Assembly (NCBI GenBank): GCA_019637115.1
Contig: JAHBWH010000010.1
Location: 18,787-82,786, forward strand
DNA length: 64,000 nucleotides
DNA from: Myxococcales bacterium
Lineage (GTDB): Bacteria > Myxococcota_A > Polyangia > Polyangiales > Houyiibacteriaceae
Reading direction: 5' to 3'
Below are positions 10,385 to 59,232 of the stretch, one piece after another (the first letter of the stretch is position 1; each line of letters starts with the position of its first letter). The position numbers and the translations under genes were made by a program. The notes beneath the pieces are model-generated. The model had not been told where the DNA came from. It saw only the letters and a program-made list of their open reading frames with translations, and made no database searches.

Positions 10385-10476
10385 CACGGCACCAGTCACA
10401 TCAGCCACACCCAGCTCCCCCCATATATCAGAGGTGCTGTAGGGTCCGACAGCAAACGCGTGCACAGGAGGGAGAG
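10385..10476. promoter_or_regulatory. Divergent intergenic region, kinase / amine oxidase
   Basis: 92 bases separate the two divergent starts, so promoters for both must lie here or inside the flanking coding ends. AGGAGGG is placed about seven bases before the amine oxidase ATG. A slightly AT-richer stretch (CCCCATATATCAGAGG) is the best candidate for a promoter core, but no clear -35/-10 pair was identified. Confidence 0.35.
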
Positions 10477-12750
10477 ATGGCCATGGAGACCGACGTCGAC
10501 GTCCTCATCGTGGGGGGCGGCTGGGCAGGCACGAGCGCTGCGCTCGCGCTCCACGAGCACAACCTGAAACACCCGAAGGACGCCCTCCGCTTCGCCCTCC
10601 TCGAGGGCCACGCCGACCGTCTCGGGGGGCGCGCGTATAGCTTCGAACACACCTTCGAGGGCCCGGACGGGAAGCCTCGGAAGACCTCGTTCGAGCACGG
10701 CGCCCAGTACATCGGCCAGGAGCAGAAGGCCATCTGGGGCGTCGTACAAGACGCGATCGCGCGCGGCCTGATCGCCGCCGACGACCTGGTGGACGGCTAC
10801 GCGGCGCGCTACCCGTACAAGGAGCAGGTCATGATGGTGGCGGGCCGACGCTACCAATACGACCGCGACCAATGCCTCTTCGGGATCGGTGGGGTGCCCC
10901 CAGACCTCGGGATCTGGGACCTCATCGGCTCGCTCGTGTTCATCCAAGCCGTCGAGGCGTTCGAGCAGGCGATCGACGTGCTCTCGCCGTGGAGCTCGCC
11001 CGCGTTCGTGACCGAGCTCGACCAGGTGACCATGCAGGAGTGGATCGACGGCTTCGGGCTCCCGCCTGGGGCGGCCTCGCTCATGAAGGTCTCGGTCGAG
11101 GCCGTCCTCAGCGTGCAATGCGACCAGGTCTCGGCTTTCTATTTCTTGTGGTACTGCGCCTGCAACGGCGGCTTCCTCAACGAGGTGAACGACGAGCAGG
11201 GCGGGCCGCAGCAGTTCTACTTGGCATGCGGCCTCGACACCCTCATCGATCGCTTGGTCGAGCCCATCCGGGACCGCATCTTCTTCGGCGAGGTCGTGCG
11301 CGAGGTCGAGCACGACCCGCACGGCGTCACCGTCCGCACCGCGAAGGGAACCCACCGCGCGAAGAAGGTCTTGCTCGCGATCTCCCCGGCGAGCGCGGGG
11401 CACATCACCTTCTCGCCCGAGCTGCCCGCGGCCTGGCAGAAGGTCACGAGCCAGTCGATGGGCGTGACGCTCAAATGCCAGCTCTTCTACCGAACCCCCT
11501 TCTGGCGCAACGTCGACGCGCAGAGCGATCCCGCGCTCGAGGGTGTGCCCCAATACACCGGCTACTGCGGCGCGAACGATTACCCCGTGATCTGGGTGAT
11601 GGACTACAGCCCCGTCGGGGCGGCGCCCGAGTACGCCGACCAAGGCTGCTATTGTCTGATGACCTTCACGATCGGCGACGAGGCGAAGCAGCTCGGCCCG
11701 AACCCGACGAAGGAGCGCGTCGCGGAGGTCGTGACCGCGGCCGTGTCGAATCTCCTGAACGACGCGCGCGCCCTCTCGACCTCCGACGAGTTCCTCGGGC
11801 TCGAGATGTTCGAGTGGAGCGAGGGGACACCGCTCATCCCAGGCGGTCCGAACACAGTCTTCGGCCCTGGTATCCTCACCGGAGAGGACGCCCCCGCGAA
11901 GGTCTTCGACCAACCCGTCGGCAAGAACCTCTACTTCGGCTGCGCAGAACTCGCCCGGACCCCGATCGGCGAGCGGACGAGCAAGCTGCCGGTGTTCATC
12001 CCGAACTGGCAGGACTTCGGCCAGACCGGCGTCTACTCCGATTGGCGCGAGAACGTCGGCTACATGGACGGCGCGATCACGTCCGGACGCTACGTCGCGC
12101 AGCAGATGCTCGTCGACCTCGGGCTCGAGAAGGGGCCGTCGATCCTCGCGCGCATGGAGGCTTGGGCCGAGGAGCTCCTCGCCTACGGAGAAGCGCGCCT
12201 CGAAGATCTCTTCATGAAGCCGAGCTCGTCCCCGCCGCCGACGGTGACCGAGGCGCAGGTGGTCGCCGTCCTCACGACCCTCTGCGAGAGCCTCTACTCG
12301 GCCTCGGCACCCACGATCGCAGCGTGGCAGGAGAGGCAGTGGAAGAACGACGCCCCCGCCCTCCAGGCGTGGGTCACCGACACGCTCGTGGAGGCGCTCG
12401 TGGCCAACGGCTTGCTGGACGCGCCCCCGACGCGCCCCGCCGAAGGCTGCGGAATCGGGCGGTCGATCGCGTACATGATCGAGATGGCGGCCTGGTCGCC
12501 GAAGTTCATGGACGCCGCGGTCGCCTTCACGAAGGCGGGCTACGCCCTCTACGCCGCGTACGAGCCGCCGCGGCACCCGGACGACCCCTACACCTTCAGC
12601 GAGGTAGTCGAGCTCACGCGCGTCGTGAACGCGCTCATGGCGCTGAAGTCGGCCGAGCCCTACCAACCCGGCTGCGACGTGAGCACGCCGGGGCGGCTGC
12701 TCTCGGTGCACGGCGTCCTGCGTGGTGGCGCGGGATCGACTGGCCGTTGA
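10477..12750 (+). CDS. FAD-dependent amine oxidase-family protein with extra C-terminal domain
   Basis: 757 residues, with AGGAGGG before the ATG. The N-terminus carries the dinucleotide motif VGGGWAGTSAA, then an amine-oxidase RLGGRAYS motif that contacts FAD, and an oxidase-type C-terminal FAD region (YFGCAELARTP, then SGRYVAQQML). The flavoprotein core ends near residue 560. About 190 further residues (helical, Trp- and Ala-rich) are not part of the standard fold and are unrecognised. The family oxidises amines, amino acids or polyenes; no substrate can be assigned. No signal peptide, so probably cytoplasmic. Confidence 0.82.
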   Translation: MAMETDVDVLIVGGGWAGTSAALALHEHNLKHPKDALRFALLEGHADRLGGRAYSFEHTFEGPDGKPRKTSFEHGAQYIGQEQKAIWGVVQDAIARGLIAADDLVDGYAARYPYKEQVMMVAGRRYQYDRDQCLFGIGGVPPDLGIWDLIGSLVFIQAVEAFEQAIDVLSPWSSPAFVTELDQVTMQEWIDGFGLPPGAASLMKVSVEAVLSVQCDQVSAFYFLWYCACNGGFLNEVNDEQGGPQQFYLACGLDTLIDRLVEPIRDRIFFGEVVREVEHDPHGVTVRTAKGTHRAKKVLLAISPASAGHITFSPELPAAWQKVTSQSMGVTLKCQLFYRTPFWRNVDAQSDPALEGVPQYTGYCGANDYPVIWVMDYSPVGAAPEYADQGCYCLMTFTIGDEAKQLGPNPTKERVAEVVTAAVSNLLNDARALSTSDEFLGLEMFEWSEGTPLIPGGPNTVFGPGILTGEDAPAKVFDQPVGKNLYFGCAELARTPIGERTSKLPVFIPNWQDFGQTGVYSDWRENVGYMDGAITSGRYVAQQMLVDLGLEKGPSILARMEAWAEELLAYGEARLEDLFMKPSSSPPPTVTEAQVVAVLTTLCESLYSASAPTIAAWQERQWKNDAPALQAWVTDTLVEALVANGLLDAPPTRPAEGCGIGRSIAYMIEMAAWSPKFMDAAVAFTKAGYALYAAYEPPRHPDDPYTFSEVVELTRVVNALMALKSAEPYQPGCDVSTPGRLLSVHGVLRGGAGSTGR

Positions 12751-36471: not shown

Positions 36472-36774
36472 CCCAGAGGCAGGGCGAGCGCCTCCGCCAA
36501 GCTCGACATCGCGCGGGCAGAGGCGTTGCCCGCCCTTGGGCGTGACGGCACGACAGCCGACGACGGTCGGTCGAGCCCTGGTCGACAGCCAGTCGAGACC
36601 TGGACGACAGCCGGTGGACGACCACTCGAGACCTGGACGACAGCCGGTCGACGGGCTCGACGACCGCTCGACCGCGGGTCGGCAAGGTCACCGGGGCGCC
36701 GTTGCGGGAACGATTACAGGAGTCCCCTCCCGGCGCCTTCCACCGTGGGTCACCGCGCTGGTATCGTATCGCGG
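36472..36774. other. Upstream region of the desaturase gene with short repeats
   Basis: 303 bases. A 23-base unit, TCGAGACCTGGACGACAGCC plus GGT, occurs identically at 36593-36615 and 36626-36648, with a diverged copy at 36571-36592. The remainder contains no credible coding frame. The promoter of the desaturase gene should lie in the last ~100 bases, but no consensus was recognised. Confidence 0.55.
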
Positions 36775-38088
36775 ATGTCCAAGCCGCCGCGCTCCGCGTT
36801 GGGGAAGCTCAACCAGCTCACCGAGTCCCACGGAGAGCTCCGACGCGGCAAGGGCATGGTGAGCGGCGTCGTCGCGCTCTCGCTCGCGATGCTCTCGCTG
36901 CTCGCGGTGATCGGCTTCCACTTCCCCGCGTACACGAGCACACCCGAGCTGCGGGCGATGTACGACGTCACGACGCTCCGCTACCTCCTCTTCGGCGGGA
37001 TGCTGATCTCGGGCATGACCGCCGCGCTCAACCTCGTGCTGGGCCGCGCGCGCTGGCTCTCGGCCGGCGCGTTCGCGTTCCTCGGGGTCGCGCAGCTCCT
37101 CGGTGGCCCGACCGTGCCCATCGGCGACTTCGCCGACGACACGCCCTACATCGGCCTCGACTTCTTCATCCTCGACCTGCTCGGCTCGACGCTCGTCTTC
37201 GTGCTCATCGAGAAGCTCGTCCCGCTGCGGCGCGAGCAGCCGGTCTTCCGCGCGGAGTGGCAGACGGACCTGCAGCACTTCTTCGTCAACCACCTCTCGG
37301 TCGGGCTCGTGCTCATCGTCGTCAACCGGATCGTGCAAGGCGCGTTCGGTTGGGCCGAGAGCGACACCGTCCGAGGCTTCGTCCAGGGCTTGCCCTTCCT
37401 GCCGGCGCTGCTGCTCTGCGTCCTCGTCGCGGACCTCGCCCAATACTGGCTCCATCGCGCCTACCACGAAGTCCCGCTGCTCTGGCGCTTCCACTCGGTG
37501 CATCACAGCGCGAAGTCGATGGATTGGCTCGCCGGCTCGCGCCAGCACATCTTCGAGCTGATCCTCACACGCGTCCTCGTGCTCGGCCCGATCTTCGTGC
37601 TCGGCTTCTCGCAGCGCGTCGTCGACGCCTACGTGATCGTCGTCGGCTTCCAAGCGGTCTTCAACCACGCCAACGTCAGCGTCCGGCTCGGGCCCCTGCG
37701 CTACGTGATCGTGACCCCGAACTTCCACCACTGGCACCACTCGCGCGACACCGAGGCCATCGACAAGAACTACGCCGCGCACTTCGCGTTCCTCGACTAC
37801 CTCTTCGGCACGGCCGTGACCGCGAACCGGACGTGGCCCGATCGCTACGGCGTCGTCGGCGACTACGTGCCCGACGGGTTCTTTCGCCAGTTCTGGTTTC
37901 CGTTCGGCGGCTCCACCGAGAGCCAAGAGGAGCGACGCCTCTCGAAGCTCCCGGTACCGGCGGACGAACCAGCCGAGCCCAGCGCGGTCGACGTCCACGG
38001 CCAAGCGGGCGATGGCCTCTCCTCCGGCTCGACGCACGAACCACTCCCGAGCGTCGCGCCCTCCGTCTCGAGCCCCGCTCCGGAGTGA
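36775..38088 (+). CDS. Sterol desaturase/fatty acid hydroxylase-family membrane di-iron enzyme
   Basis: 437 residues. Four N-terminal helices (~25-150) precede the catalytic core. The histidine boxes are HRAYH (HX3H, in YWLHRAYHE), HSVHH (HX2HH) and HHWHH, which bind the di-iron centre. The GRAFAFLGV-like segment and the NYAAHFAFLDYLFGT motif are family-typical. Known members oxidise sterols (C-5 desaturase, C-4 methyl oxidase), fatty acids or carotenoids. The sterol operon 9 kb away makes a sterol substrate attractive but unproven. A decayed partial copy of its 3' part lies downstream. Confidence 0.85.
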   Translation: MSKPPRSALGKLNQLTESHGELRRGKGMVSGVVALSLAMLSLLAVIGFHFPAYTSTPELRAMYDVTTLRYLLFGGMLISGMTAALNLVLGRARWLSAGAFAFLGVAQLLGGPTVPIGDFADDTPYIGLDFFILDLLGSTLVFVLIEKLVPLRREQPVFRAEWQTDLQHFFVNHLSVGLVLIVVNRIVQGAFGWAESDTVRGFVQGLPFLPALLLCVLVADLAQYWLHRAYHEVPLLWRFHSVHHSAKSMDWLAGSRQHIFELILTRVLVLGPIFVLGFSQRVVDAYVIVVGFQAVFNHANVSVRLGPLRYVIVTPNFHHWHHSRDTEAIDKNYAAHFAFLDYLFGTAVTANRTWPDRYGVVGDYVPDGFFRQFWFPFGGSTESQEERRLSKLPVPADEPAEPSAVDVHGQAGDGLSSGSTHEPLPSVAPSVSSPAPE

Positions 38089-46958: not shown

Positions 46959-47954
46959 TCAGGCCGGCTTGCGGACCAAGAAGAAGTACATCGGCGTGAA
47001 CGTGCCCGTCTCGCCGCCCGCGACCAGCGCGTCCGCGCCCTGGTTGAGGAAGCTGCTGACGTCGCTCGTTCCCTGCGGCGCGAGCTTCACCTTCTCCATG
47101 AAGCGCGTGAGCTTGTTCGTGAGCACGCGGCCGAGCGGCTTGCGCGGGAGCGCGAGCAGGCCCTTCTCCCGGCCCGTCAGCGGCAGATACCACGGCGTCT
47201 CGGGGCTCCCGTGGCCGGCCATGTCCTCGGTCTCCAGCACCTCGAAGCCCGCGTCGCGCAGCGCCGCGTCGACGACGCTCGTGTGTGAGAGGTCGGGCAG
47301 GCCATTGCCGATCTCGATGTCCTTCTTGATCTTCCGGTGCGTCGGGTCGCTCTCGTCGTAGCGGTCCGTGAGGCACCACTCGTAGCCTGCGAAGAGCGCG
47401 CCCGGCTTCATCGCGCGGTGCAGGCCGCGGAAGAGCTTCGTGCGGTCCGGCGCGTGGCAGCTCGCCTCGATGGTGTAGACGGCGTCGAAGCGCGCGTCCT
47501 CGAAGGGCAGCTCCATGAAGTCCGCCTTCGCGAAGCTGACGAGGTGGTCGAGGCGCTGCTTCCTCGCGTAGCGCTCGGCGCGCGCGACCTGGTAGGCGTT
47601 GTTGTTGATCCCGACGATCTTCGCGCCGCTGCGCTTCGCGATGTGGCGCGCGGGCCCGCCGACGCCGCAGCCGACGTCAAGGACCTCCTTGCCAGGCGCG
47701 AGGCGGAGCGCGCGGTCGAGGTGGCGCTCGTGGCGCAGGAGGCTCTCCTTGAAGCCCTCCCACTTCCAGCGCGGCGCGAAGTGGAAGTGCTGGCCCCAGC
47801 CGATCTCGTAGAAGTCCGTCGCGAGGTCGTAGTACTGGTTGACGAGCGTCGTGTAGCTCGTGAGCCGCGTGTCGACGTCGCTCTGCTCGTGCAGGCCCTT
47901 GTAGGCGTCGACGGTGGACTTGAAGGACTCCTTGACGGTCTCGCGCTGCGCCAT
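46959..47954 (-). CDS. Sterol C-24 methyltransferase (ERG6/SMT-like)
   Basis: 331 residues. The SMT hallmark region YYDLATDFYEIGWGQHFHFA lies at residues 41-60, followed by SAM motif I VLDVGCGVGG (91-100), then GINNNAYQV and YTIEASCHAPD. These match sterol methyltransferases of plants, fungi and sponges, which transfer methyl from S-adenosylmethionine to C-24 of a delta-24 sterol. It is the last gene of the sterol operon, 194 bases after the cyclase stop. A C-24 alkylated sterol is therefore the inferred end product. Small-molecule methyltransferases lack the SMT region, so the assignment is firm; the exact substrate is not. Confidence 0.9.
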   Translation of the reverse strand: MAQRETVKESFKSTVDAYKGLHEQSDVDTRLTSYTTLVNQYYDLATDFYEIGWGQHFHFAPRWKWEGFKESLLRHERHLDRALRLAPGKEVLDVGCGVGGPARHIAKRSGAKIVGINNNAYQVARAERYARKQRLDHLVSFAKADFMELPFEDARFDAVYTIEASCHAPDRTKLFRGLHRAMKPGALFAGYEWCLTDRYDESDPTHRKIKKDIEIGNGLPDLSHTSVVDAALRDAGFEVLETEDMAGHGSPETPWYLPLTGREKGLLALPRKPLGRVLTNKLTRFMEKVKLAPQGTSDVSSFLNQGADALVAGGETGTFTPMYFFLVRKPA

Positions 47955-48147
47955 CGTGCTTCTCGCATCGGCGCCGGGGCGCCTCGGTTGGGGAGCCCAT
48001 CAGCGGGGCTCGAAGGTCGGTCGAAGGTCGGTCGGGGGTCGTGGACGAGAGCCTCGGAGGCTCGCAGGTCGTCGGGCTAACACGTGAGGCGCGCTCGCGC
48101 CTCGTGATTTCGGCGTGGCCGGCGAACGCTGCGCCGGTCGCCGCCTC
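47955..48147. other. Gap between cyclase and methyltransferase genes
   Basis: 193 bases, no gene. Short direct repeats of GAAGGTCGGTC lie near 48008-48035. A separate promoter for the methyltransferase cannot be excluded because this is the operon's second-longest gap. Confidence 0.35.
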
Positions 48148-50244
48148 TCACTCCGCGGGCGGCGCAGGCGCGCGCTCCGCTGCCTCGCGCGCTTCGGGCG
48201 CGACGCCGAGGCGACGCTCGGCGAGGGCCAGCGCCCACACCGGGAAGAGCCGCCGGTAGAGGCGGTACTCGATCAGCGCGGTGCGGAAGAAGACACCCGC
48301 GAACTCCTGGATCGGGAAGTCGCCGCGCTCGTCCTGCACGGACGCGAGCCACTTCGCGCCCTTCGCGATGGGCTTCTCCTCGACGTCCTCGCCCGCGAGG
48401 AGCGTGAGCAGCGCCCACGCGGTCTGCGTGACGTGCCCGTGGCCGAGGTCCTCGTACGTGTCCGTGAGGCACGTCCGCCAATGCTCGCCCCAGCTCCCGT
48501 CGGGCCGCTGCCGCGCGCGCACGAAGGCGCACGCCTTGCGGATGGCGGGGTCGTCCGCCGACGCGCCCGCCGCGCGCAGGCCGCGCACGCCGAACATCGT
48601 CCCGTAGAGGAACCACACACCCCACGCGCCCGGCCACGAGCCGTCCGGCCGCTGCGTCTCTCGGAGCCGCGCCTCGGCGCGCGCGATCGCACCGTCGATC
48701 TCCGCGCGCATGAGCGTGGGGAAGCGCGCCCGCACCTCGCAGAGCGCGATGAGGTTCGATGCGGTGCACTCCACGTAGGAGAGCTCCGTCATCGAGTCGC
48801 CGAACATCTCGGCGGGGTTCATCCACTCGAGGGTAAAGCGCTGCTTGCGCGCCTCGTAGCTGCCGAAGCCACCCTCGGGGTTCTGGCATTGCAGCAAGAA
48901 GCGCACGGCCGCCTCGACGGCGCGCTCGTCGAGCGTCGCCAGCGTCTCGGGCGCCTCGAGGAAGGCGCAGAGCGCCTCTGCGGTGCAGTCGCTGACCGGC
49001 CAGCCGTGCCACACACCCGCGAAGCAGAAGCCGCCCGTGGGGTCGACCCGGTATTGCTGGCGGTACTCGGCGACGCTGCCGCCGGGCGGACGCTGGATCT
49101 GCTGCGTCGCGAGCCAACCGAGACCCGTCGTCAGCGCCTCGTCGGCGAGCGCGCGCGTCTCGGGCGAGAGCGCCGGGCGCGCCGCGCTCAGCGCCTGGAG
49201 CGCGAAGCTCGTGTCCCAGGTGGCGCTCCGCGCGCCCGCGACGCGCGTGCCGTCCTGCGCGTCCTCCCAGAGCCAGCCCTCGAAGCGCTCCATCTGGCGC
49301 GCGACGTCGGGGTCGTGCTTGTCCCAGGCGTGCAGGGTGAGCGCGAAGAGCAGCCCGTTGACCGGCGAGAGGCACGTATGGTCCGTGCTGCGGAGCTCCC
49401 AGCGCATGCGCTCGCGGATGCTCGCGAGGCACGCGCGTCGGATGGCGCCCGCGCCGGGGAGGAACGAGCGCAGCGCCTCGTAAGCGTTGACCGCCTTGTA
49501 CATCGCCTCGAGCGCCGGCCCCGGCGGCGCCCAGAGGTCGCGCTCGCGCAAGAGCCCGCGCGCCGACGCGAAGTCGAGCGCCTCGTACTCGACGCGGCCG
49601 CTCTGGGCGTGGAAGGCGTAGATCTCCTGGCGGAGCTCGTCGGTGAGCGGGGTGCGCCGCGCGCGCAGCTTCAGCCCGTGCACGCTCGCCATGCCCATGT
49701 AGATGAGCCGCGTGTGGCAGTAGTAGTTGCCGGGGTGCACCGGCGAGGACGTGGGCATGAGCCACGCCTCGGGCGGCACGGCGTTGACGCCCTCCCAGCC
49801 GTAGAGGTTCATGATCGCGAGCCAGGCCTTGCCCCAGCTCGGGATCGCGCGGACGTCCTCGCGCGCGAAGAGCTCGCGCGCGAAGGCGAGCATCGGATCG
49901 TCCGCCGACACGCCGAGGGTGCGCGCGGCCACGTACGCGAGCGTCGTCACGAAGAGCGACTCGCCCCCGTGCGGGTGCAGGCCCCAGCCCCCAGGCCGGC
50001 CGTCGGGTTGCGCGAGCTGCTCGGCGCGGAGCTGCTGCACGAGCGACGCGCGGCGGTCCGCGGAGAGCGGACGCTCCATCACGTGCATCGCGAGCGCGTA
50101 TTGCGCCGCGAGCATCGGGTTCCAGACGTCCTCACCCTCCCAATGGTCGGCGGGGCGCGCGGCCTCGTCCGCGTGGCGCTCCTCGCCGCGCAGCGCGACG
50201 AGCCGCCGGACGGCGCGGTCGAGCGCCTCGCTCGTGGTCGCCAC
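48148..50244 (-). CDS. Oxidosqualene cyclase (lanosterol/cycloartenol synthase-like)
   Basis: 698 residues, starting at a GTG one base after the HMG-CoA reductase stop. DCTAE (419-423) marks an oxidosqualene cyclase; squalene-hopene cyclases carry DxDDTA instead. The HGWPVSDC stretch, the MWDT-equivalent ATWDTSFALQAL and QW-type repeats (CQNPEGGFGSYE, RPDGSWPGAWG, RPDGSWGEHW) complete the triterpene cyclase fold. It should cyclise (3S)-2,3-oxidosqualene at the membrane. His413 sits where plant cycloartenol synthases have His477, whereas Val417 matches the lanosterol-synthase valine, so the product (lanosterol or cycloartenol) cannot be read. Length is normal. Confidence 0.9.
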   Translation of the reverse strand: MATTSEALDRAVRRLVALRGEERHADEAARPADHWEGEDVWNPMLAAQYALAMHVMERPLSADRRASLVQQLRAEQLAQPDGRPGGWGLHPHGGESLFVTTLAYVAARTLGVSADDPMLAFARELFAREDVRAIPSWGKAWLAIMNLYGWEGVNAVPPEAWLMPTSSPVHPGNYYCHTRLIYMGMASVHGLKLRARRTPLTDELRQEIYAFHAQSGRVEYEALDFASARGLLRERDLWAPPGPALEAMYKAVNAYEALRSFLPGAGAIRRACLASIRERMRWELRSTDHTCLSPVNGLLFALTLHAWDKHDPDVARQMERFEGWLWEDAQDGTRVAGARSATWDTSFALQALSAARPALSPETRALADEALTTGLGWLATQQIQRPPGGSVAEYRQQYRVDPTGGFCFAGVWHGWPVSDCTAEALCAFLEAPETLATLDERAVEAAVRFLLQCQNPEGGFGSYEARKQRFTLEWMNPAEMFGDSMTELSYVECTASNLIALCEVRARFPTLMRAEIDGAIARAEARLRETQRPDGSWPGAWGVWFLYGTMFGVRGLRAAGASADDPAIRKACAFVRARQRPDGSWGEHWRTCLTDTYEDLGHGHVTQTAWALLTLLAGEDVEEKPIAKGAKWLASVQDERGDFPIQEFAGVFFRTALIEYRLYRRLFPVWALALAERRLGVAPEAREAAERAPAPPAE

Positions 50245-50245
50245 G

Positions 50246-51532
<1,287 letters not shown>

Positions 51533-51848
51533 GAAATCCACTCCGGAGGAGGAAGCGGCCGCGATGGCGGCCATCGAGAGGAAGGGGCGAAGCCCCGTCG
51601 GGAGACGAAGCCTCGATCGCGGAGCGACCGAGGTGAGCGGGTGACCCTGGGTGGGTTGGCACCCTGTGAGCCCTGTGAGCCCTATGAGCCGACACGCTGT
51701 GAGCCGGCACGCTATGAGCCGACACGCTGTGAGCCGACACGCTGTGGTGAGGCGACGCCGAGTCGGGAGCGCTCGGGCTCGGGAGACTGGGATCGAAAGT
51801 TCGGAAAGAGCGAGAGAGAGGCGCCGCGCGGGGCGGCAACCCCGAAGG
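51533..51848. other. Gap between the HMG-CoA reductase and SdmA-like genes
   Basis: 316 bases without a credible gene. It contains the tandem repeats described separately and a purine-rich stretch before the reductase start. It may house a secondary promoter, but nothing consensus-like was recognised. Confidence 0.4.
51662..51745. repeat. Tandem 9-bp and 15-bp repeats between operon genes
   Basis: Three copies of CC(C)TGTGAG (51662-51688) run into four 15-base copies of GAGCCGACACGCTGT at 51686-51745 (one with G for A and A for G). The array is perfectly regular, sits 130-190 bases ahead of the HMG-CoA reductase start and lies outside any supported gene. Confidence 0.9.
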
Positions 51849-52997
51849 TCAGGCGGGCGAAGCGCCCTCGGAGGAGGCGGGCTTGGTGCCGATCTGGGTC
51901 AGACCGCCCTCGCCTTGGCTCGCGAGGTAGGCCTCCCATTTGCGGATCGTGACCTCTTGGAAGGCCTTCACGACCGGGTTGAGCTCCGCGAGGGGCGCGT
52001 CCCAGTGCATCTCGTAGCCCTCCTGCTCGGCCTCGACCGCGAGGCCGTCCTCACTGAGCAGGGGCTTGACCGTCAGCTCCTTCGCCGCCGGGAGGAACGC
52101 CTTCATCAGGCCCTTCGGGATCTCGAAGCTCGTGAAGGGGATGTTGAAGGCCTTGAAGTAGAAGACGAAGAAGCCGCGGGTCGTCCGCTCGTCGATCGGG
52201 AGCACGAAGAGCCAGTGCTTGATCTGATCGTCCGTGTTCGACCACTGGTAGGGGTACTCGTAGCCGAGGCGCATGTAGTTCGTGTTCACGCGCTTGCGGC
52301 TGACGAAGAGCTTGTTGAAGCGGCCCTGCCCGACCTTCGTGTCGTACTCGAGGTAGACGTTGTCGCCGACGGTCTCGTATTTGCGCAGCTCGGCGTCCTC
52401 GAAGGGTCGGAAGCGCCGGTGCAGGTAGGCGTGCGTGAAGTCCGACACGTTGTCGATGATCATCGAGTGGTGCGCCTTCCACGTGAAATCCGCGGAGATG
52501 CTTGGCCACGCGTCGGGGCCCTCCAGCTCGGGCACGACCGGCAGCGCGACGCTCTGCGCGCGCTCGACGTCGCCCGGGAAGATCCAGATGAGGCCGTAGC
52601 GCTCCTGCACCGGGACCTCGGGCACCTTGAACTTCGGGAACTTCCGCCCGAAGAGGCTGTGCGGGATCTCGACCACGCGGCCGTCGCCGTCGTACGCCCA
52701 GCCGTGGTAGGGGCAGACGAGGTTGCAGCCGTCGACGTGGCCCGTCGTCAGCTTGAGCTGACGGTGCGCGCAGCGGTTCTCGACCGCGCGGATCTGACCG
52801 TCCTCACCACGGAAGACCGCGATGCTCCGCTTCCAGAAGACCACCTCCTGGACACCGCCCGCCTTCACGTTCTTCGACCACTCGGCCGGGTACCAGTAGT
52901 TCGGGTCCATGCCGGCGGCGCGGACCTTCTGGCGCGTGTTCTTCGCCTCGGCGAACGACGGCGGGGGCTGGATGGGTTTGGTGTAACGGCTGCTCAT
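51849..52997 (-). CDS. Rieske non-haem iron oxygenase, SdmA-like C-4 sterol demethylase candidate
   Basis: 382 residues. The Rieske cluster site is Cys76-x-His78 (CAHR) with Cys95-x2-His98 (CPYH). The mononuclear iron site is Asn183/Asp186/His189/His193 in IDNVSDFTHAYLH. These define an alpha-subunit oxygenase. In Methylococcus capsulatus the Rieske oxygenase SdmA oxidises C-4 methyl groups of sterols, together with the reductase SdmB. The adjacent dehydrogenase and the rest of the sterol operon make that role likely here. It starts 17 bases after the dehydrogenase stop. No separate ferredoxin or reductase gene is in the cluster. Confidence 0.82.
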   Translation of the reverse strand: MSSRYTKPIQPPPSFAEAKNTRQKVRAAGMDPNYWYPAEWSKNVKAGGVQEVVFWKRSIAVFRGEDGQIRAVENRCAHRQLKLTTGHVDGCNLVCPYHGWAYDGDGRVVEIPHSLFGRKFPKFKVPEVPVQERYGLIWIFPGDVERAQSVALPVVPELEGPDAWPSISADFTWKAHHSMIIDNVSDFTHAYLHRRFRPFEDAELRKYETVGDNVYLEYDTKVGQGRFNKLFVSRKRVNTNYMRLGYEYPYQWSNTDDQIKHWLFVLPIDERTTRGFFVFYFKAFNIPFTSFEIPKGLMKAFLPAAKELTVKPLLSEDGLAVEAEQEGYEMHWDAPLAELNPVVKAFQEVTIRKWEAYLASQGEGGLTQIGTKPASSEGASPA

Positions 52998-53014
52998 GGG
53001 GAACTCGGCTCGCT

Positions 53015-54112
53015 TCAGGCGTGGATGGCTACGCCGTCCGGCGCGCGACGGACCGGCGCGCGGTCCTCGGGGGACTTGGCCTCGGGGTGCGTGATCGCGC
53101 CCCGGCTCCAGTGGAACGCGTAGGCCTCGGCGAAGGCATCCCGCATCGAGCTCGGGCGGAAGCCGAGCTCGTTCTGCGCCTTCGAGGTGTCGGCGTGGCG
53201 GCGCAGGCGGAGGCGCCGGATGGCGCCGGGGGTGAGCAGCTGCTGGCGCTTGGGCGCGAAGCGCGTGAGCAGGAAGCTCGAGATCTCGGCCGCGGGCAGG
53301 AGCGCCGCCGCCGGGACGCGGAAGCGCGGACGCGGCGCGCCCGTGATCTCCTCGAGCATGTCGAAGATGTGATCGAAGTCGAGGAACTGGGTCGCGACGA
53401 TATACTTCTGGCCAGTGCGCCCGCGCTCCATCGCGCGCACGTGGCCGTCGACGATGTCGCGCGCCGCGACGAACTCGAAGCCGCCCGGCGAGTAGACGTT
53501 GAGCTCGCGGTTGGCGAACTTGCAGATCGTCGTGCCCATGCGCGAGGGCAGGTAGTCGTGGCCGCCGATGATCGCGCAGCTCGTGACGATGAGCGCGTCG
53601 AGCCCCTCGACGCAGGCCTTGAGCAGCTCGTGCTCCTGCAGGACCTTGCTGCGCTCGTAGGGCATCGCGCGGTGGTAAGGGTAAAACTGCCGCGTCTCGT
53701 CCGCAGGCTTCGACGTCTCGTCGAGGTCGTAGCCGACCGCCGAGAACGAGCTCGTGAGCACGAAGCGCTCGACGCCGGTCTCCTTGGCGGCCTGCATCAG
53801 GTAGCGCGCGCCGAGCACGTTCGTCTCGTAGATCGTGCGGCGGTGCTCGGCGTCGCCGTCGATCGTCGAGACCATCGACGCGACGTGGTAGACGCGGCGG
53901 CAGCCCTCGACGGCCTGGATGAGCGAGCCGCGATCGCGCAGATCGCCGTAGGCCTTCTCCACGCCGTGGAGGCCGTCGACGGCCTCCTCGTTCTCGCCGC
54001 GGCGCAGGAGGACACGCACGCGCTCGCCCTCCTCGACGAGGCGGTGCAGGAGGTTCGCGCCGAGGTGGCCGGTCGCGCCGGTGATCAGGGTGGGGGCGTC
54101 CTTGGCAGGCAT
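53015..54112 (-). CDS. 3-beta-hydroxysteroid dehydrogenase-like SDR, SdmB-like
   Basis: 365 residues. NAD(P) motif TGATGHLG (11-18), active-site YERSK (Tyr152, Lys156) and the VLTSSFSAVG strand mark an extended SDR of the 3-beta-HSD/NSDHL type. NSDHL-type enzymes oxidise and decarboxylate a C-4 carboxysterol during demethylation, exactly the step that follows Rieske oxidation. The ATG overlaps the fusion gene's stop (TGATG), so translation is coupled. The C-terminal ~70 residues are helical with SFLLTRFAPKRQQLL, which may touch the membrane. Confidence 0.82.
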   Translation of the reverse strand: MPAKDAPTLITGATGHLGANLLHRLVEEGERVRVLLRRGENEEAVDGLHGVEKAYGDLRDRGSLIQAVEGCRRVYHVASMVSTIDGDAEHRRTIYETNVLGARYLMQAAKETGVERFVLTSSFSAVGYDLDETSKPADETRQFYPYHRAMPYERSKVLQEHELLKACVEGLDALIVTSCAIIGGHDYLPSRMGTTICKFANRELNVYSPGGFEFVAARDIVDGHVRAMERGRTGQKYIVATQFLDFDHIFDMLEEITGAPRPRFRVPAAALLPAAEISSFLLTRFAPKRQQLLTPGAIRRLRLRRHADTSKAQNELGFRPSSMRDAFAEAYAFHWSRGAITHPEAKSPEDRAPVRRAPDGVAIHA

Positions 54113-57100
54113 CAGTGGACCGTCGCTTCGTGGGTGGAGCTCTCGAGCGCGGGCATGCGCCAGAGGGCGTCGTAACGTTGGCGGAGCGCCTCGTCCTTCG
54201 AGGCGTTCGAGAGGCAGTCGGCGATGAGCTCCTCGACCTCGGCCCGCGCGATCTTCACGGGGTTGCCCGCCGTGAACATCGCGTCGTTGCCTCGCGCGTG
54301 GACGAGCGTGCGCACGGCCATCCACAGCGGGAGCAGGCAGAAGAGGCGCATCGCGCCGTGCTCGGCCGGGATGGCGAGCACGTACTCGAGCGCGCGATCG
54401 AGGCGCGCCTGCGCGGTGTCGAAGAGCGGCGCGACCGCCGCGTGCGCGCGCTCGCGGACGGCGGGGTCGACGAGCGCGTCGATGGCGAGCCCCTGCAGGT
54501 TCGCGCTCGTGCGCGGGATGAAGCTGACGCGGCGCTCGCGGTCGTCGGTGATGTCCTTGAGGATGTTCACGAGCTGGAGGCCGACGCCGAAGGCCTCGGC
54601 CTCGGTGCGGAGCGCGTGCTCGGTGTCGGTGCCCGCGGCGCCCATGGCCTCGACGAAGAGGTCGGTGAGCATGTGGCCGACGGTGCCCGCGACGAAGTAG
54701 CAATAGCGCTCGAGATCTTCGACGGTGTAGAGCGCCGTGTAGCCGTCGTCGCCCGCCGTGCGGTGCGAGTAGAGCTGCATGCCGCGCGTCATCTCCGCGA
54801 CCCACCGCGTCGCCTTCGTCTGCATGCCCTTGGGCAGGCCCCGGAAGACGCGGAGCACGGTGCCGAGGTGCTGGCAGAGGTCGTTCTCGACCTGGTTGCC
54901 CTCCACGCCGCGGAACTGATCCTCGAAGCGGCGCACGACCTCGTCGTCGGGGCTCGCGTAGAGCGCCGCGAGGAAGGTCTCGTAGCGGGCGTCGCGCTCC
55001 TCCACGGTGAAGAAGGCGTTGTCCTCGATCGTGTCGGCGATGCGACAGAGCAGGTAGCCGCAGGTGACGGCGGTACGCAGGTCGCCGGGGAGCATCTCGA
55101 TCGGCCGCGCGAAGGAGCGCGAGACCGCGAGCAGGCTCTCGCGACAATAGGCCACGTCCTCGGAGCTCGCCTTCGCGGCGCGGCGCCCCTTGGCGGGCAT
55201 CACGCGCGTAGCGCGCTTGTCGCGGTAGAGGTGCAGCGCGTCGGAGGCCTCGGCCCCGAGCGCGACCGACTCGCCGAGCGACGCGAGCCCGCGCTCGATG
55301 GCCTCCCAATGCGGGGCCTCGCTCGCGAGCAGCGCGCGGCAGACGATCGCCGTCGTGCGCGCCCCGCCGAAGCTGCCGTCCTCGCGCTGGCCGGCGACGA
55401 GCACCCGCACCGCCCGCCGCAGGCGCGGGTGGAAAGGAGGCAGCCCCGAGGCGTGGAGCAGCTCGAGCGCGAGCGCGGTGCCCATGAGCCCGCCCTCGAA
55501 CGCGCCGTCGCTCCGCTGCGCGCGGCGGAGCTGGTCGGCGAAGCGCGCCCACGCGCCGTCGATGACGCCGGGCAAGAGCCCGGGGAAGCGGGCGCGGGCC
55601 CGGCGCATGGCGACCGCCGCGTCGCGGCGCGCGCCGAGGTTGCGCGTCGCGTCGGCGGCCTCGACGAGCTGAGGCACGAGGCGCACCGCGTCGTCGAGCC
55701 GATGCTGCGCGACGGCGCCCTCGAGCTCGAGCGCGAGGCGGCTCGCCGGCTCGGCGGGCGCGAGATCGGCGGCGTCCGTGACGCGGGCGAGCAGCGCGTC
55801 GACGTCGACGCTCACGCTGGGCGTCGCGCCCTCGGTGGGCGAGGGCAGCACGGGCGCCGGCGGCGTGATCCCAGCACCACGCAGCGGGTGGAGGCGCGTG
55901 CCCACGCGGCGCCACTTCTCGCGGAGGCGGCGGGGGACGAGCGTCGCGCCCGGCCACTGCGCCCACTCGGCGAAGCGCGCGAGCTCGTGCGGGAGCCGGC
56001 GCAGCGCCTTGTCCGCGACGACCTGCTGCGTCGTGTCCTGGACCGCGCGGCGCGCGACGTTGACGAACGCCCCGCCGAATTGGTCGAGGCGGACCTCGTC
56101 ACCCGCGAGGATGCGCATCGTGCGCACGCGCTCGGCGGGCTCGTCGCGCCAGGTGTCGAAGACGGCGCTGCGGATCGCGACCGCGCTCTCGTCCTCGCGC
56201 ATGAAGACCTGGAAGAGCGCGTTGACGAGCAGCTCGGAGACGTAGCTCTGCGGCTCGCGCGTCTGGCGGTACTCCTCGAGCGTCGCGCTCGAGAGCAGCG
56301 TGTCTGTGTCCTTGAGCGCCACCGTGATGCCCGTCGCCGTGAGCGGGTGGCAGAAGCCGACGGCGTCGCCGACGAGCGCGACGCGGCCCGCGCCGTAGAA
56401 GGTGCGCGGGAGGAAGCGGTTGCTCGCCCAGATGATCTTGTCCTGCTCGAGCGCGCGCTTGTACGCGGGGCGGAGCGTCTCGGGGAAACGCGAGGCGAAG
56501 GCGTCCCAGAGGTAACGCGCGTCGCGGCGCGCCCCCGGGGTGCCTGCCGGGATGTCGACGCACGCGCGGACCCGATCCTCGGCGATCCGGTAGAGCAGGA
56601 TGGCGCCCGGCCCGCCGAGCAGCACGTGGCCATAGCCCTCGAAGGGCATCTCGATGCCGTGCAGCTCGATGCCCGCCATGTGCGAGATGAGCTCGGCCTC
56701 GTCCTCCTGCCGCAGGCTCTTGCGCACGACGCTCGAGCGGCCGTCGGCGGCGATGATGCGCCCCGCGGCGATCGTGTGCTCGCGGCCGCCGTGGGTGAAG
56801 GTGACCTTCTCGCCCGCGACGCCCGAGACGCGCGCGTGCTCGAGGTAGGTGACGCCGGGCGTCGCGGCGGCGGCGCTGCGGAGCGACTCCACGAGGTCGC
56901 CGTGCTCGCACGAGAAGCCGACGGTCCCGTCCGCGTAGTCGAGCTGGACGGCCTCCGAGCCGTCGTCGGGGAAGACGGCGAAGCCGTAGCAGGGGGTGTG
57001 CTTGGAGGTCGCCGCGTGCGGGAAGAGGCCGTACTTGCGGAGGACGTCGCCGCCGGTCGGGTGAATCCACTCACCCGCGAAGCGCGAGGACGCGCGGGGG

Positions 57101-57225
57101 TTCGCCTCGAGGAGCAGGACGGCGGCGCCCTGACGGGCGTATCCGACGGCGGCGGCGGATCCGGCGGGGCCCCCGCCGACGACGATTACGTCGTAGCTCG
57201 GCTCGATGGTCGCGTTTTCGCTCAT
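54112..57225 (-). CDS. Squalene epoxidase-like / QW-domain / squalene synthase fusion protein
   Basis: 1037 residues from the ATG at 57225 (GGGAG upstream). Residues ~10-445: flavoprotein with VGGGPAGSAA (16-25) and GDAVGFCHPLTATGI (286-300), the GD-HPLT-TVAL signature of squalene epoxidases. Residues ~480-665: helical domain with two QW-like motifs (AQRSDGAFEGG, GQREDGSFGG) as in triterpene cyclases but without a catalytic Asp. Residues ~690-1000: squalene synthase, with Asp-rich sites DTIED (731-735) and NILKDITDD (887-895) and YCYFVAGTVG between. It should join two farnesyl diphosphates to squalene and epoxidise it. It is first in the operon. A GGR-type oxidoreductase function for the N-terminal part is the main alternative. 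Confidence 0.85.
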   Translation of the reverse strand: MSENATIEPSYDVIVVGGGPAGSAAAVGYARQGAAVLLLEANPRASSRFAGEWIHPTGGDVLRKYGLFPHAATSKHTPCYGFAVFPDDGSEAVQLDYADGTVGFSCEHGDLVESLRSAAAATPGVTYLEHARVSGVAGEKVTFTHGGREHTIAAGRIIAADGRSSVVRKSLRQEDEAELISHMAGIELHGIEMPFEGYGHVLLGGPGAILLYRIAEDRVRACVDIPAGTPGARRDARYLWDAFASRFPETLRPAYKRALEQDKIIWASNRFLPRTFYGAGRVALVGDAVGFCHPLTATGITVALKDTDTLLSSATLEEYRQTREPQSYVSELLVNALFQVFMREDESAVAIRSAVFDTWRDEPAERVRTMRILAGDEVRLDQFGGAFVNVARRAVQDTTQQVVADKALRRLPHELARFAEWAQWPGATLVPRRLREKWRRVGTRLHPLRGAGITPPAPVLPSPTEGATPSVSVDVDALLARVTDAADLAPAEPASRLALELEGAVAQHRLDDAVRLVPQLVEAADATRNLGARRDAAVAMRRARARFPGLLPGVIDGAWARFADQLRRAQRSDGAFEGGLMGTALALELLHASGLPPFHPRLRRAVRVLVAGQREDGSFGGARTTAIVCRALLASEAPHWEAIERGLASLGESVALGAEASDALHLYRDKRATRVMPAKGRRAAKASSEDVAYCRESLLAVSRSFARPIEMLPGDLRTAVTCGYLLCRIADTIEDNAFFTVEERDARYETFLAALYASPDDEVVRRFEDQFRGVEGNQVENDLCQHLGTVLRVFRGLPKGMQTKATRWVAEMTRGMQLYSHRTAGDDGYTALYTVEDLERYCYFVAGTVGHMLTDLFVEAMGAAGTDTEHALRTEAEAFGVGLQLVNILKDITDDRERRVSFIPRTSANLQGLAIDALVDPAVRERAHAAVAPLFDTAQARLDRALEYVLAIPAEHGAMRLFCLLPLWMAVRTLVHARGNDAMFTAGNPVKIARAEVEELIADCLSNASKDEALRQRYDALWRMPALESSTHEATVH

Positions 57226-57556
57226 GATTTCTCCCGTCGACTTCGATGGGCACAAGCTCGAAGGCCTGTGGCGCGCGCCCCTCCGGACGGACTCGATCCC
57301 GGGCTGGGGTAGCAAGGGCGGGGGCGGACAGGGTCCCCAATCGGGTGAGCGGGGCGCGCCAGCAGGCGAGCCGTCGACCCTCCCAGGTGAATCGGGTTCT
57401 AGCGAGCGCGCCTCACGAAGGCGTGTTCCTTAGCGGTTACGGTAGGTTACGCGCCAGAAACATGTTCGCCGGGGCTAGGAGGGGCCCCGCGATCGTGTCA
57501 GCGCCTCGGCTCTCGGCGAGGCGTGTGGCTACGAGCCTTTCGTGTACGCTGCGAGC
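57226..57556. promoter_or_regulatory. Divergent control region of the sterol operon
   Basis: 331 bases between the fusion gene (leftward) and the small protein gene (rightward). It must hold the sterol operon promoter. Visible features: CGCCTCG / CGAGGCG (stem 7) near 57504-57526, paired GGTTAC motifs near 57436-57450, and an AT-richer run AGAAACATGTTCG. No known operator was recognised. Confidence 0.45.
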
Positions 57557-57937
57557 ATGACGCATGACCGCCTCATCCCATGCGCTGCTTGTGGGGCCCA
57601 CGTCCGCGCGGCGGAGCCGTGCCCCTTCTGCGGCGGAGAGGGCGCGCACGACGGGTCGGCGCCCCGCGGCACCCGCGGCGGCGTGGTCGCCGCTTCGCTC
57701 CTGGCCCTCTCGGCGTGCGCGAGCCCGAGCCCCGAGCTCCCGCCCGAGCACGACACGGGCGACGAGGTCGTCGTGGAGACGCTGCCCTCACCGGAGGACG
57801 ACGAAGACCGGATCGTCGACGGAGAGCCGCCCGCCGAGGAGCTCGTCGGACCGCCCGAACCTCCGCCCGCGGCGGCCTACGGCGGCCCGCCCGACGACAT
57901 GATCATGCAGCCGATGTACGGCATCGCGCCGGAATGA
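57557..57937 (+). CDS. Small zinc-ribbon/TM protein with YG-rich C-terminus, possible radical-SAM substrate
   Basis: 126 residues. Cys9, Cys12, Cys22 and Cys25 form a zinc-ribbon (CAACG, CPFCG). A hydrophobic segment (41-54, VVAASLLALSAC) may anchor it in the membrane. The mature part is Pro/Glu/Asp-rich and ends in YGGPP (108-112) and MYGIAP (120-125). The stop overlaps the radical SAM start by four bases (ATGA), so the two are made together. Two short Tyr-Gly-x-x-Pro-like motifs beside a maturase suggest a peptide substrate, but the long acidic middle and zinc ribbon are unlike a classic leader. No family named. Confidence 0.65.
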   Translation: MTHDRLIPCAACGAHVRAAEPCPFCGGEGAHDGSAPRGTRGGVVAASLLALSACASPSPELPPEHDTGDEVVVETLPSPEDDEDRIVDGEPPAEELVGPPEPPPAAAYGGPPDDMIMQPMYGIAPE

Positions 57938-59232
57938 GCGCCGAGGTGCCGTCCGCGCTCGTGCGCCACACGAGCCACGGCGACGGACCGCGCTACGTGG
58001 TCTGGGAGATCACGCTCCGCTGCGATCTCGGCTGCAAACACTGCGGCTCGCGCGCTGGCCACGCGCGGGACGACGAGCTCTCGACCGACGAATGTCTGGA
58101 CGTCGTCGGGCAGCTCCACGAGCTCGGCGTCGCGGAGGTCACGCTCATCGGCGGGGAAGCGTACCTCCGCGAGGATTGGGATCTCATCGCGCGCGCGATC
58201 ACCGACCGCGGGATGCGCTGCGGCATCACGACGGGCGGGCGCGGGCTCGACGACGATCGCGTGCGCCGCGCCGTCGACGCGGGCGTCTCGACGATCTCGG
58301 TCTCGATCGACGGGCTCGAGCGCACGCACGATCTGCAGCGAGGCGCGACGGGATCGTTCCGCGCGGCGCTCGACGCCTGCGAGCGGATCGCGAAGAGCTC
58401 GATGCGGCTCGCGACGAATACGCAGATCAACCGGCTCTCGATGCCCGAGCTCGTCGCGCTCGCCGACCTGCTGCACGAGGTCGGCTCGAAGGCGTGGCAG
58501 ATCCAGCTCACCGTGCCGATGGGGCGCGCCGCCGATCGGGCGGACCTCCTGCTGCAGCCGCACGATCTGCTCGAGCTCTTCCCGCTGCTCGTCTGGATCA
58601 AGCGCGAGAAGCTCACGCCGCGCGACATCCGGCTCTTCCCCGGCAACAACATCGGGTACTTCGGGCCCTACGAGCAGGAGCTTCGCTACGGGGGCGCGAG
58701 CGGCACGCACTGGACCTCCTGCGGCGCGGGGCGCGCGTGCCTCGGGCTCGAGTCCGACGGCAAGCTCAAGGGTTGCCCTTCGTTGCCGACCGATCGCTAC
58801 GGCGGCGGCCTCGTGCGGGAGACGCCGATCGCCGAGCTGATCCGGCGCGAGCCCATCGCACACCTCGGCGCCCGCACCGCGGCGGATCTCTGGGGGTATT
58901 GCGGGACCTGCTACTACGCCGACGTCTGCCGCGCCGGCTGCAGCTGGACCGGACACGTGCTCATGGGCCGGCCGGGCAACAACCCCTACTGCATCCATCG
59001 CCAGCTCGACCACGAGCGACGAGGCCTGCGCGAGCGCCTCGTGCGCGTCGAGACCGCCCCGGGCGTGCCCTTCGACCACGGCCGATTCACGACCGAGCTC
59101 GAGCCGCTCGGGCCCGCCCCCGAGCGCGCGACGATCCTCGGCGTCGACCTCGCCGAGGTGCTCGCGATGGGGCGTGAGCGGGCTGGCGCGTTCGACGCGC
59201 CGGAGAGCAAACGGCGGCTCCGCGTCGTCTGA
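57934..59232 (+). CDS. Radical SAM/SPASM maturase-like protein
   Basis: 432 residues from the ATG overlapping the preceding stop. The radical-SAM cluster is Cys30, Cys34, Cys37 (CDLGCKHC). GGEAYLRED is the SAM-binding loop, and the barrel follows. The C-terminal SPASM part holds Cys in CGAGRACLGLESDGKLKGC and then CGTCYYADVCRAGCSW, for extra Fe-S clusters. SPASM enzymes usually modify ribosomally made peptides by forming thioether, C-C or C-N links. The neighbouring 126-residue protein is the only candidate substrate in view. The last ~25 residues are duplicated downstream. Confidence 0.85.
   Translation: MSAEVPSALVRHTSHGDGPRYVVWEITLRCDLGCKHCGSRAGHARDDELSTDECLDVVGQLHELGVAEVTLIGGEAYLREDWDLIARAITDRGMRCGITTGGRGLDDDRVRRAVDAGVSTISVSIDGLERTHDLQRGATGSFRAALDACERIAKSSMRLATNTQINRLSMPELVALADLLHEVGSKAWQIQLTVPMGRAADRADLLLQPHDLLELFPLLVWIKREKLTPRDIRLFPGNNIGYFGPYEQELRYGGASGTHWTSCGAGRACLGLESDGKLKGCPSLPTDRYGGGLVRETPIAELIRREPIAHLGARTAADLWGYCGTCYYADVCRAGCSWTGHVLMGRPGNNPYCIHRQLDHERRGLRERLVRVETAPGVPFDHGRFTTELEPLGPAPERATILGVDLAEVLAMGRERAGAFDAPESKRRLRVV

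Follow-up and report, generated by a model that had tools for sequence, protein, structure and literature searches.

A six-gene sterol locus with a sterol methyltransferase and a three-part epoxidase/synthase protein in a myxobacterial family

Organization of the sterol locus

We analyzed a stretch of 64,000 nucleotides (the window), which lies on contig C2 of an assembly of 8.88 Mb in 434 contigs with an estimated completeness of 98%. Its source is very likely a myxobacterium that has not been cultured. Six co-directional sterol genes occupy positions 46959..57225 of the window on the minus strand. Their products, and the parts of the first one, are the following:

54112..57225, minus strand: fused squalene epoxidase, middle cyclase-like domain and squalene synthase, 1037 aa in a single open frame (Pfam SE and SQS_PSY)
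55891..57225, minus strand: squalene epoxidase part of the fusion, about residues 1-445
55171..55818, minus strand: middle domain of the fusion, about residues 470-685, a toroid with homology to oxidosqualene cyclase (C-terminal half)
54112..55167, minus strand: squalene synthase part of the fusion, about residues 687-1037
53015..54112, minus strand: SdmB-like short-chain dehydrogenase (sterol C-4 demethylation), 365 aa (NF052578, motifs)
51849..52997, minus strand: SdmA-like Rieske oxygenase (sterol C-4 methyl oxidation), 382 aa (NF052579, motifs)
50246..51574, minus strand: HMG-CoA reductase (HMGR) of TIGR00532 type, 442 aa (TIGR00532)
48148..50244, minus strand: oxidosqualene cyclase (OSC), 698 aa from GTG 50244 (TIGR03463, TIGR01787, DCTAE)
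46959..47954, minus strand: sterol 24-C-methyltransferase (SMT), 331 aa (PF08498, motifs, identity to NAT131)

A preliminary description of the locus had placed six genes at these positions on the minus strand, where we found all of them, and the Pfam and NCBIfam assignments concur with the names it gave. The Pfam E-values are 3.8e-42 (SQS_PSY), 6.2e-29 (SE), 5.8e-32 (Epimerase), 3.4e-22 (Rieske), 1.3e-105 (HMG-CoA_red), 3.6e-49 (SQHop_cyclase_C) and 7.8e-25 (Sterol_MT_C). Since the same gene order also recurs in five other genomes, the six frames are not chance ORFs.

The preliminary description had also reported short gaps or overlaps. This holds for the 1-nt overlap of the fusion gene and SdmB (TGATG), the 17 nt between SdmB and SdmA and the 1 nt between HMGR and OSC, taking GTG 50244 as the OSC start. 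The remaining two junctions out of five are longer, with 274 nt between SdmA and HMGR (taking ATG 51574 as the HMGR start) and 193 nt between OSC and SMT. No sigma-70-like promoter was found in the operon region, and its terminator-like sites (3, compared with 3.0 in shuffles) show no excess. We therefore infer operon status from spacing and conservation.

Two neighbors of the six genes lie on the plus strand. The divergent one, at window positions 57542-59232, encodes a radical SAM/SPASM maturase that resembles TIGR04103 (479 bits) and TIGR03913 (433 bits), both below their cutoffs. It is preceded by a 131-aa ORF ending in ...MYGIAPE, with which it possibly forms a peptide-modification pair. 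About 9 kb from the operon, positions 36526-38088 encode a PF04116 hydroxylase/desaturase protein (OlsE-like at 118 bits, under the cutoff).

Assignment of the operon enzymes

HMG-CoA reductase matches TIGR00532 at 390 bits, above the 260-bit cutoff. For SdmB (NF052578, 2.7e-92, 310 bits) and SdmA (NF052579, 8e-124, 413 bits) the scores fall below the 600-bit equivalog cutoffs; these are still the best-scoring families. SdmB carries the motifs GATGHLG and YERSK, and SdmA carries the Rieske CxH...CxxH pattern and DFTHAYLH. In methanotrophs, SdmAB is described as taking off a single C-4 methyl (PMC13277303), and in S. amylolyticus as taking off the two of them (PMC12004948); by homology it is plausible that the product here is C-4 demethylated.

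The cyclase is of the OSC type and not of the hopene-cyclase type, as the preliminary description had it. It scores 641 bits (1.5e-192) with TIGR03463, the best-scoring family, whose own cutoff of 851 is not reached, against 199 bits with TIGR01507, and its 430 bits with TIGR01787 exceed that family's cutoff of 323. Among reference proteins, human OSC gives 375 bits and hopene cyclase 146. DCTAE lies at residue 419, with a Val two residues before it. Val at position 453 is the rule for lanosterol-type cyclases (PMC10152446), and this residue is present in the window's cyclase and in 21/21 relatives compared (31 were fetched). A hopanoid locus is ruled out, as the genome's one PF13243 protein is this OSC-type cyclase.

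The methyltransferase matches both PF08498 (87 bits, cutoff 21.7) and PF08241 (75 bits, cutoff 21.2), and contains the motifs FYEIGWGQHFHF, IEASCHAP, YEWCLTD and VLDVGCGVGGP. The regions that we take to be the SMT signature (YxxGWGxxFHF, EAtCHAP and YEWxxTD) are present at residues 48, 162 and 191. The protein is 73% identical to the OSC-adjacent SMT of record NAT131 and 52% identical to the second NAT131 SMT. The Sterol_MT_C domain and the former identity bear out the SMT assignment made previously, and from that 73% identity we predict that the enzyme methylates a delta-24 sterol.

Two observations concern methyltransferases elsewhere. Like NAT131, genome G222 from a different family of this phylum encodes a tandem pair of SMTs (C1:183713-185096). 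In Calothrix sp. NIES-4105, a methyltransferase 32% identical to the SMT and with no Sterol_MT_C match lies inside a sterol-type cluster (L095:16325-17128).

Remaining pathway enzymes and the predicted product

The preliminary description had called for a genome-wide search for CYP51 and C-14 reductase genes, and this search returned a CYP51 fused to a ferredoxin, an ERG24-type reductase and a homologue of the NTF2-like 8,14-sterol reductase (8,14-Bsr). The CYP51-ferredoxin is one of four P450 matches in the genome. Its best PDB match is 6mcw (M. capsulatus CYP51), over residues 5-532 at an E-value of 1.7e-157, covering both the P450 and the ferredoxin.

The 8,14-Bsr homologue, a protein of 213 residues, is encoded directly downstream of the CYP51-ferredoxin gene. 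It matched no Pfam or NCBIfam family. Its identity is 54-56% with four NTF2-like proteins of methanotrophs, 58% with a protein named from Sandaracinus sp. and 60% with its counterpart in G016, the genome that matches NAT131. The pocket residues reported for 8,14-Bsr are Y37, Y43, Y78, Y80, D133 and D136 (PMC13277303). All six are kept as Y49, Y55, Y90, Y92, D145 and D148, each 12 positions further on than in the methanotroph rows, whose numbering is assumed to equal that of M. capsulatus, which lay outside the alignment. The homologue was also matched in 15 further family genomes. At 8 of the 11 other family loci examined it adjoins a CYP51-like P450; these eight P450s are 39-62% identical, and three of them (39-43%) match the P450 part only. 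In G039, the homologue was matched as two adjoining pieces (C11:29778-30403) and may be interrupted.

We also searched for a Bsr-type C-24 reductase, using as proxy a putative enzyme (L077:7298-8509) that was picked for its YGWLFP motif, its GGR_cat domain and its position in a sterol cluster; the search covered reductases of this type. At 1e-20 the proxy found nothing in the genome of the window, and we reject C-24 reduction by Bsr in this organism. No EBP match was found in the genome, which encodes eight PF04116 proteins, among which a C-5 desaturase may lie.

Taken together, we consider it probable that the six genes, the CYP51-ferredoxin and the 8,14-sterol-reductase homologue make a side-chain-methylated sterol with a predicted 8(14) double bond. 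HMG-CoA reductase likely supplies the mevalonate pathway. The fused protein would convert farnesyl diphosphate to squalene and then to oxidosqualene, which the cyclase, given its Val at position 453, is predicted to turn into lanosterol. Loss of the C-14 methyl through CYP51-ferredoxin and the NTF2-like reductase would then yield a sterol with an 8(14) double bond, and SdmA and SdmB would strip C-4 of one methyl or of both. At the delta-24 bond, which would otherwise be lost to a C-24 reductase, the methyltransferase would extend C-24 by at least one carbon.

Because an ERG24-type reductase is also present in the genome, a delta-8 product is possible. The same operon could work with this enzyme in place of the 8,14-Bsr homologue, in which case the product would likely be a delta-8 (fecosterol-like) or a delta-7/delta-5 24-methyl sterol. 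The enzyme is one PF01222 protein (contig C112) with a match to the delta-14-sterol reductase 4quv at 1e-56, and both reductases are reported to occur together in Methylotuvimicrobium (PMC13277303). However, it is the 8,14-Bsr homologue that adjoins CYP51 here, as it does a CYP51-like P450 at most of the other loci examined, and no EBP match was found that could carry out the delta-8 to delta-7 shift. We regard the ERG24 route as possible and clearly the less likely of the two. On C112, the beginning of the ERG24-type reductase gene (9953-11119) seems to be overlapped by a CMAS-like SAM methyltransferase ORF (L037:11077-11976), which may encode another methyltransferase of lipids or sterols.

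The preliminary description had implied that the sterol is made with no oxygenase genes of eukaryotic type. This does not stand: the epoxidase is of the SQLE family and fold, and the genome holds the CYP51-ferredoxin fusion and the ERG24-type reductase.

Conservation across the family

Five other genomes (G016, G015, G045, G046 and G025) carry the genes for the fusion, SdmB, SdmA, HMGR, OSC and SMT in this order on a single strand, at loci L039/L069, L040/L072, L045/L073, L046/L071 and L049/L075; in G025, about 1.5 kb separates HMGR from OSC. Between squalene synthase and HMGR, neither SdmA nor SdmB was seen in G017 and G018, and no SdmA was seen in L076 or in G024, where a contig end cuts the locus. 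Among 31 named OSC loci, several of them cut by contig ends, 9 have an SMT that follows OSC directly at its 3' side on the same strand. In 5 more, from four alphaproteobacterial MAGs and one unplaced bacterium, the SMT is 3' of OSC on the opposite strand. A different arrangement was observed in L077 (Sandaracinaceae bacterium) and L078 (Deltaproteobacteria bacterium), where two epoxidase-like FAD genes flank OSC beside a GGR-type reductase.

Across 33 family genomes, we matched OSC in 16 (with partial matches in G021 and G029), the SMT domain PF08498 in 22 and the 8,14-Bsr homologue in 16. The Bsr proxy matched in 1/33 (G023, 34% identity), and a Bsr-like C-24 reductase is present in one of the 16 OSC genomes. 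OSC and SMT occur together in 15 genomes, that is, in 15/16 with OSC (Fisher p 0.0024, relatedness ignored); G043 has OSC without SMT. In an even phylum-wide sample, SMT was found in 19/377 genomes, 12 of which belong to this family. The 8,14-Bsr homologue gave no match in two of the nine operon genomes, G017 and G025.

Seven of the 22 SMT-bearing family genomes (G026, G028, G032, G034, G038, G040 and G041) have no OSC match, so the SMTs there may act on imported sterols; these genomes suggest either such alkylation or missing contigs. Extended to the window, this would mean that the SMT mainly modifies prey or environmental sterols and that the operon's own sterol stays unalkylated. We find this improbable, as the window's OSC run ends with the SMT and so do those of 8 other family genomes. 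In addition, a 100/100 branch of an SMT tree separates the 11 rows labelled operon-linked from the SMTs of the four alphaproteobacterial MAGs and the unplaced bacterium. The tree has 40 rows, of which 24 are unlabelled (some of them among the operon-linked rows) and two are duplicate records, and L038 is labelled operon-linked though its contig breaks at the SMT.

A three-part epoxidase/synthase protein

The preliminary description had read the first gene as a fusion of squalene synthase and epoxidase. Between these two parts lies a middle domain of about 210 residues that was absent from that reading. The epoxidase part has the PF08491 domain and the SQLE fold. The synthase part has two Asp-rich motifs and the SQS fold; TIGR01559, at 110 bits, does not reach its curated cutoff of 287 and is still the best-scoring family. 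Twenty-five other database proteins (P0002-P0026; 1005-1078 aa) are 51-75% identical to the fusion over 96-100% of the query, which rules out a frameshifted or chimeric fusion. The three-part protein also occurs under the name Cystobacter fuscus (P0081).

Because matches of the two outer domains took up the fold list of the whole model, a separate model of the middle domain was made and searched. Foldseek gave no match at 0.001 for this domain, the best being human OSC at 1.1e-3. Its VIA alignment to human OSC runs over chain residues 70-727 and so extends beyond the C-terminal half. The acid motif of type II terpene cyclases (DxDD or DCTAE) was not found in the window's middle domain (P0001), and strings of this kind are scattered in 5 of 58 middle domains. 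Across the acid stretch, short forms such as the window's copy show a gap, and their alignment to OSC starts only past the catalytic Asp. An Asp occupies the column before the aligned stretch, one off the OSC catalytic Asp, in 23/58 middle domains, mostly longer forms; P0030, P0033, P0041 and P0081 are examples of longer fusions that keep an Asp near the cyclase acid site.

We conclude that the middle domain is probably half of a cyclase, itself inactive, which keeps the C30 substrate in place or passes it on. That it is instead an active single-domain cyclase, with the fusion making its own cyclic triterpene, is very improbable: its homology and fold match to type II cyclases, the solved structures of myxobacterial single-domain squalene-hopene-type cyclases (8pak, 8paj) and the displaced Asp, which makes an acid possible in the longer forms, speak for it, but the C. 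fuscus fusion has no sequence match to 8pak at an E-value of 1e-6, and for the window's copy we reject an active cyclase on the absent motif strings and the gap at the acid site.

Comparison with known sterol clusters

The window fits a Sandaracinus-type SMT sterol cluster, with OSC, SdmA, SdmB and SMT together. Such a cluster, with two functional SMTs, has been described from a marine Sandaracinus sp. MAG of the North Atlantic (Brown et al. 2023, PMC10070321), the only paper that we found on SMTs from 2023 on. According to that work, marine myxobacteria are the most promising bacterial candidates, an isolate is lacking and SMT activity awaits confirmation in a myxobacterial isolate. Record NAT131 (L069) is likely, by inference, the same MAG, and the 8,14-Bsr of Sandaracinus NAT131 has been expressed and is active (PMC13277303). 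NAT131 has the six genes and their order in common with the window (OSC 69% and HMGR 82% identical). However, it carries two tandem SMTs, whereas the window's genome carries one. The main-text passages of PMC10070321, taken apart from its figures and supplement, name neither HMG-CoA reductase nor the epoxidase-synthase fusion. Its methods mention fused SMO/OSC homologues, in which an epoxidase is likewise joined to a squalene-hopene-cyclase-type domain; in the window, the cyclase-like part is a half domain and is followed by squalene synthase. No description of an epoxidase-synthase fusion was found in the titles, abstracts and passages searched.

One large sterol cluster has also been published for S. 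amylolyticus (Lee and Welander 2025, PMC12004948). As in the window, it combines committed sterol genes with isoprenoid-precursor genes and uses SdmAB for C-4. S. amylolyticus, however, makes cholesterol via a GGR-type C-24 reductase (Bsr), whereas the window's genome has an SMT and no match to the Bsr proxy. The CYP51-ferredoxin and 8,14-Bsr pairs described in methanotrophs and uncultured myxobacteria (PMC13277303) likewise consist of a CYP51 fused to ferredoxin and an adjoining NTF2-like gene with the six pocket residues; in the window's genome, unlike in those pairs, the pair lies on another contig than the OSC operon, and an SMT is present.

The preliminary description had called this combination of genes unusual. 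That is correct in part, given that five relatives carry the six-gene order and that clusters of this kind are in print (PMC10070321, PMC12004948). Its claim to novelty is not upheld; the remaining interest is a sharpened, testable product and the three-part enzyme.

Implications

The locus is an added example of a full gene set with a single SMT, and the survey shows that SMT accompanies OSC across the family. The neighboring genes fix the predicted product as a 24-methyl or 24-methylene 8(14)-sterol. The three-part epoxidase/cyclase-like/synthase protein is a separate question of enzymology that is testable now.

More speculatively, 24-alkylated 8(14)-sterols may be the ordinary membrane sterol of the whole family, with C-24 methylation replacing reduction, the CYP51-ferredoxin/8,14-Bsr pair at work and a single three-domain protein leading from farnesyl diphosphate to oxidosqualene, its middle domain, a cyclase half that has lost the acid, serving as a substrate cradle. 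We hold this wider proposal tentatively and think it rather unlikely in full. Side-chain-alkylated steranes are read as traces of eukaryotes. On the predicted product, this myxobacterial family would be a source of lipids usually taken for such traces and, if the wider proposal is true, a standing source, in bacteria, of molecular fossils of the ergostane and stigmastane types.
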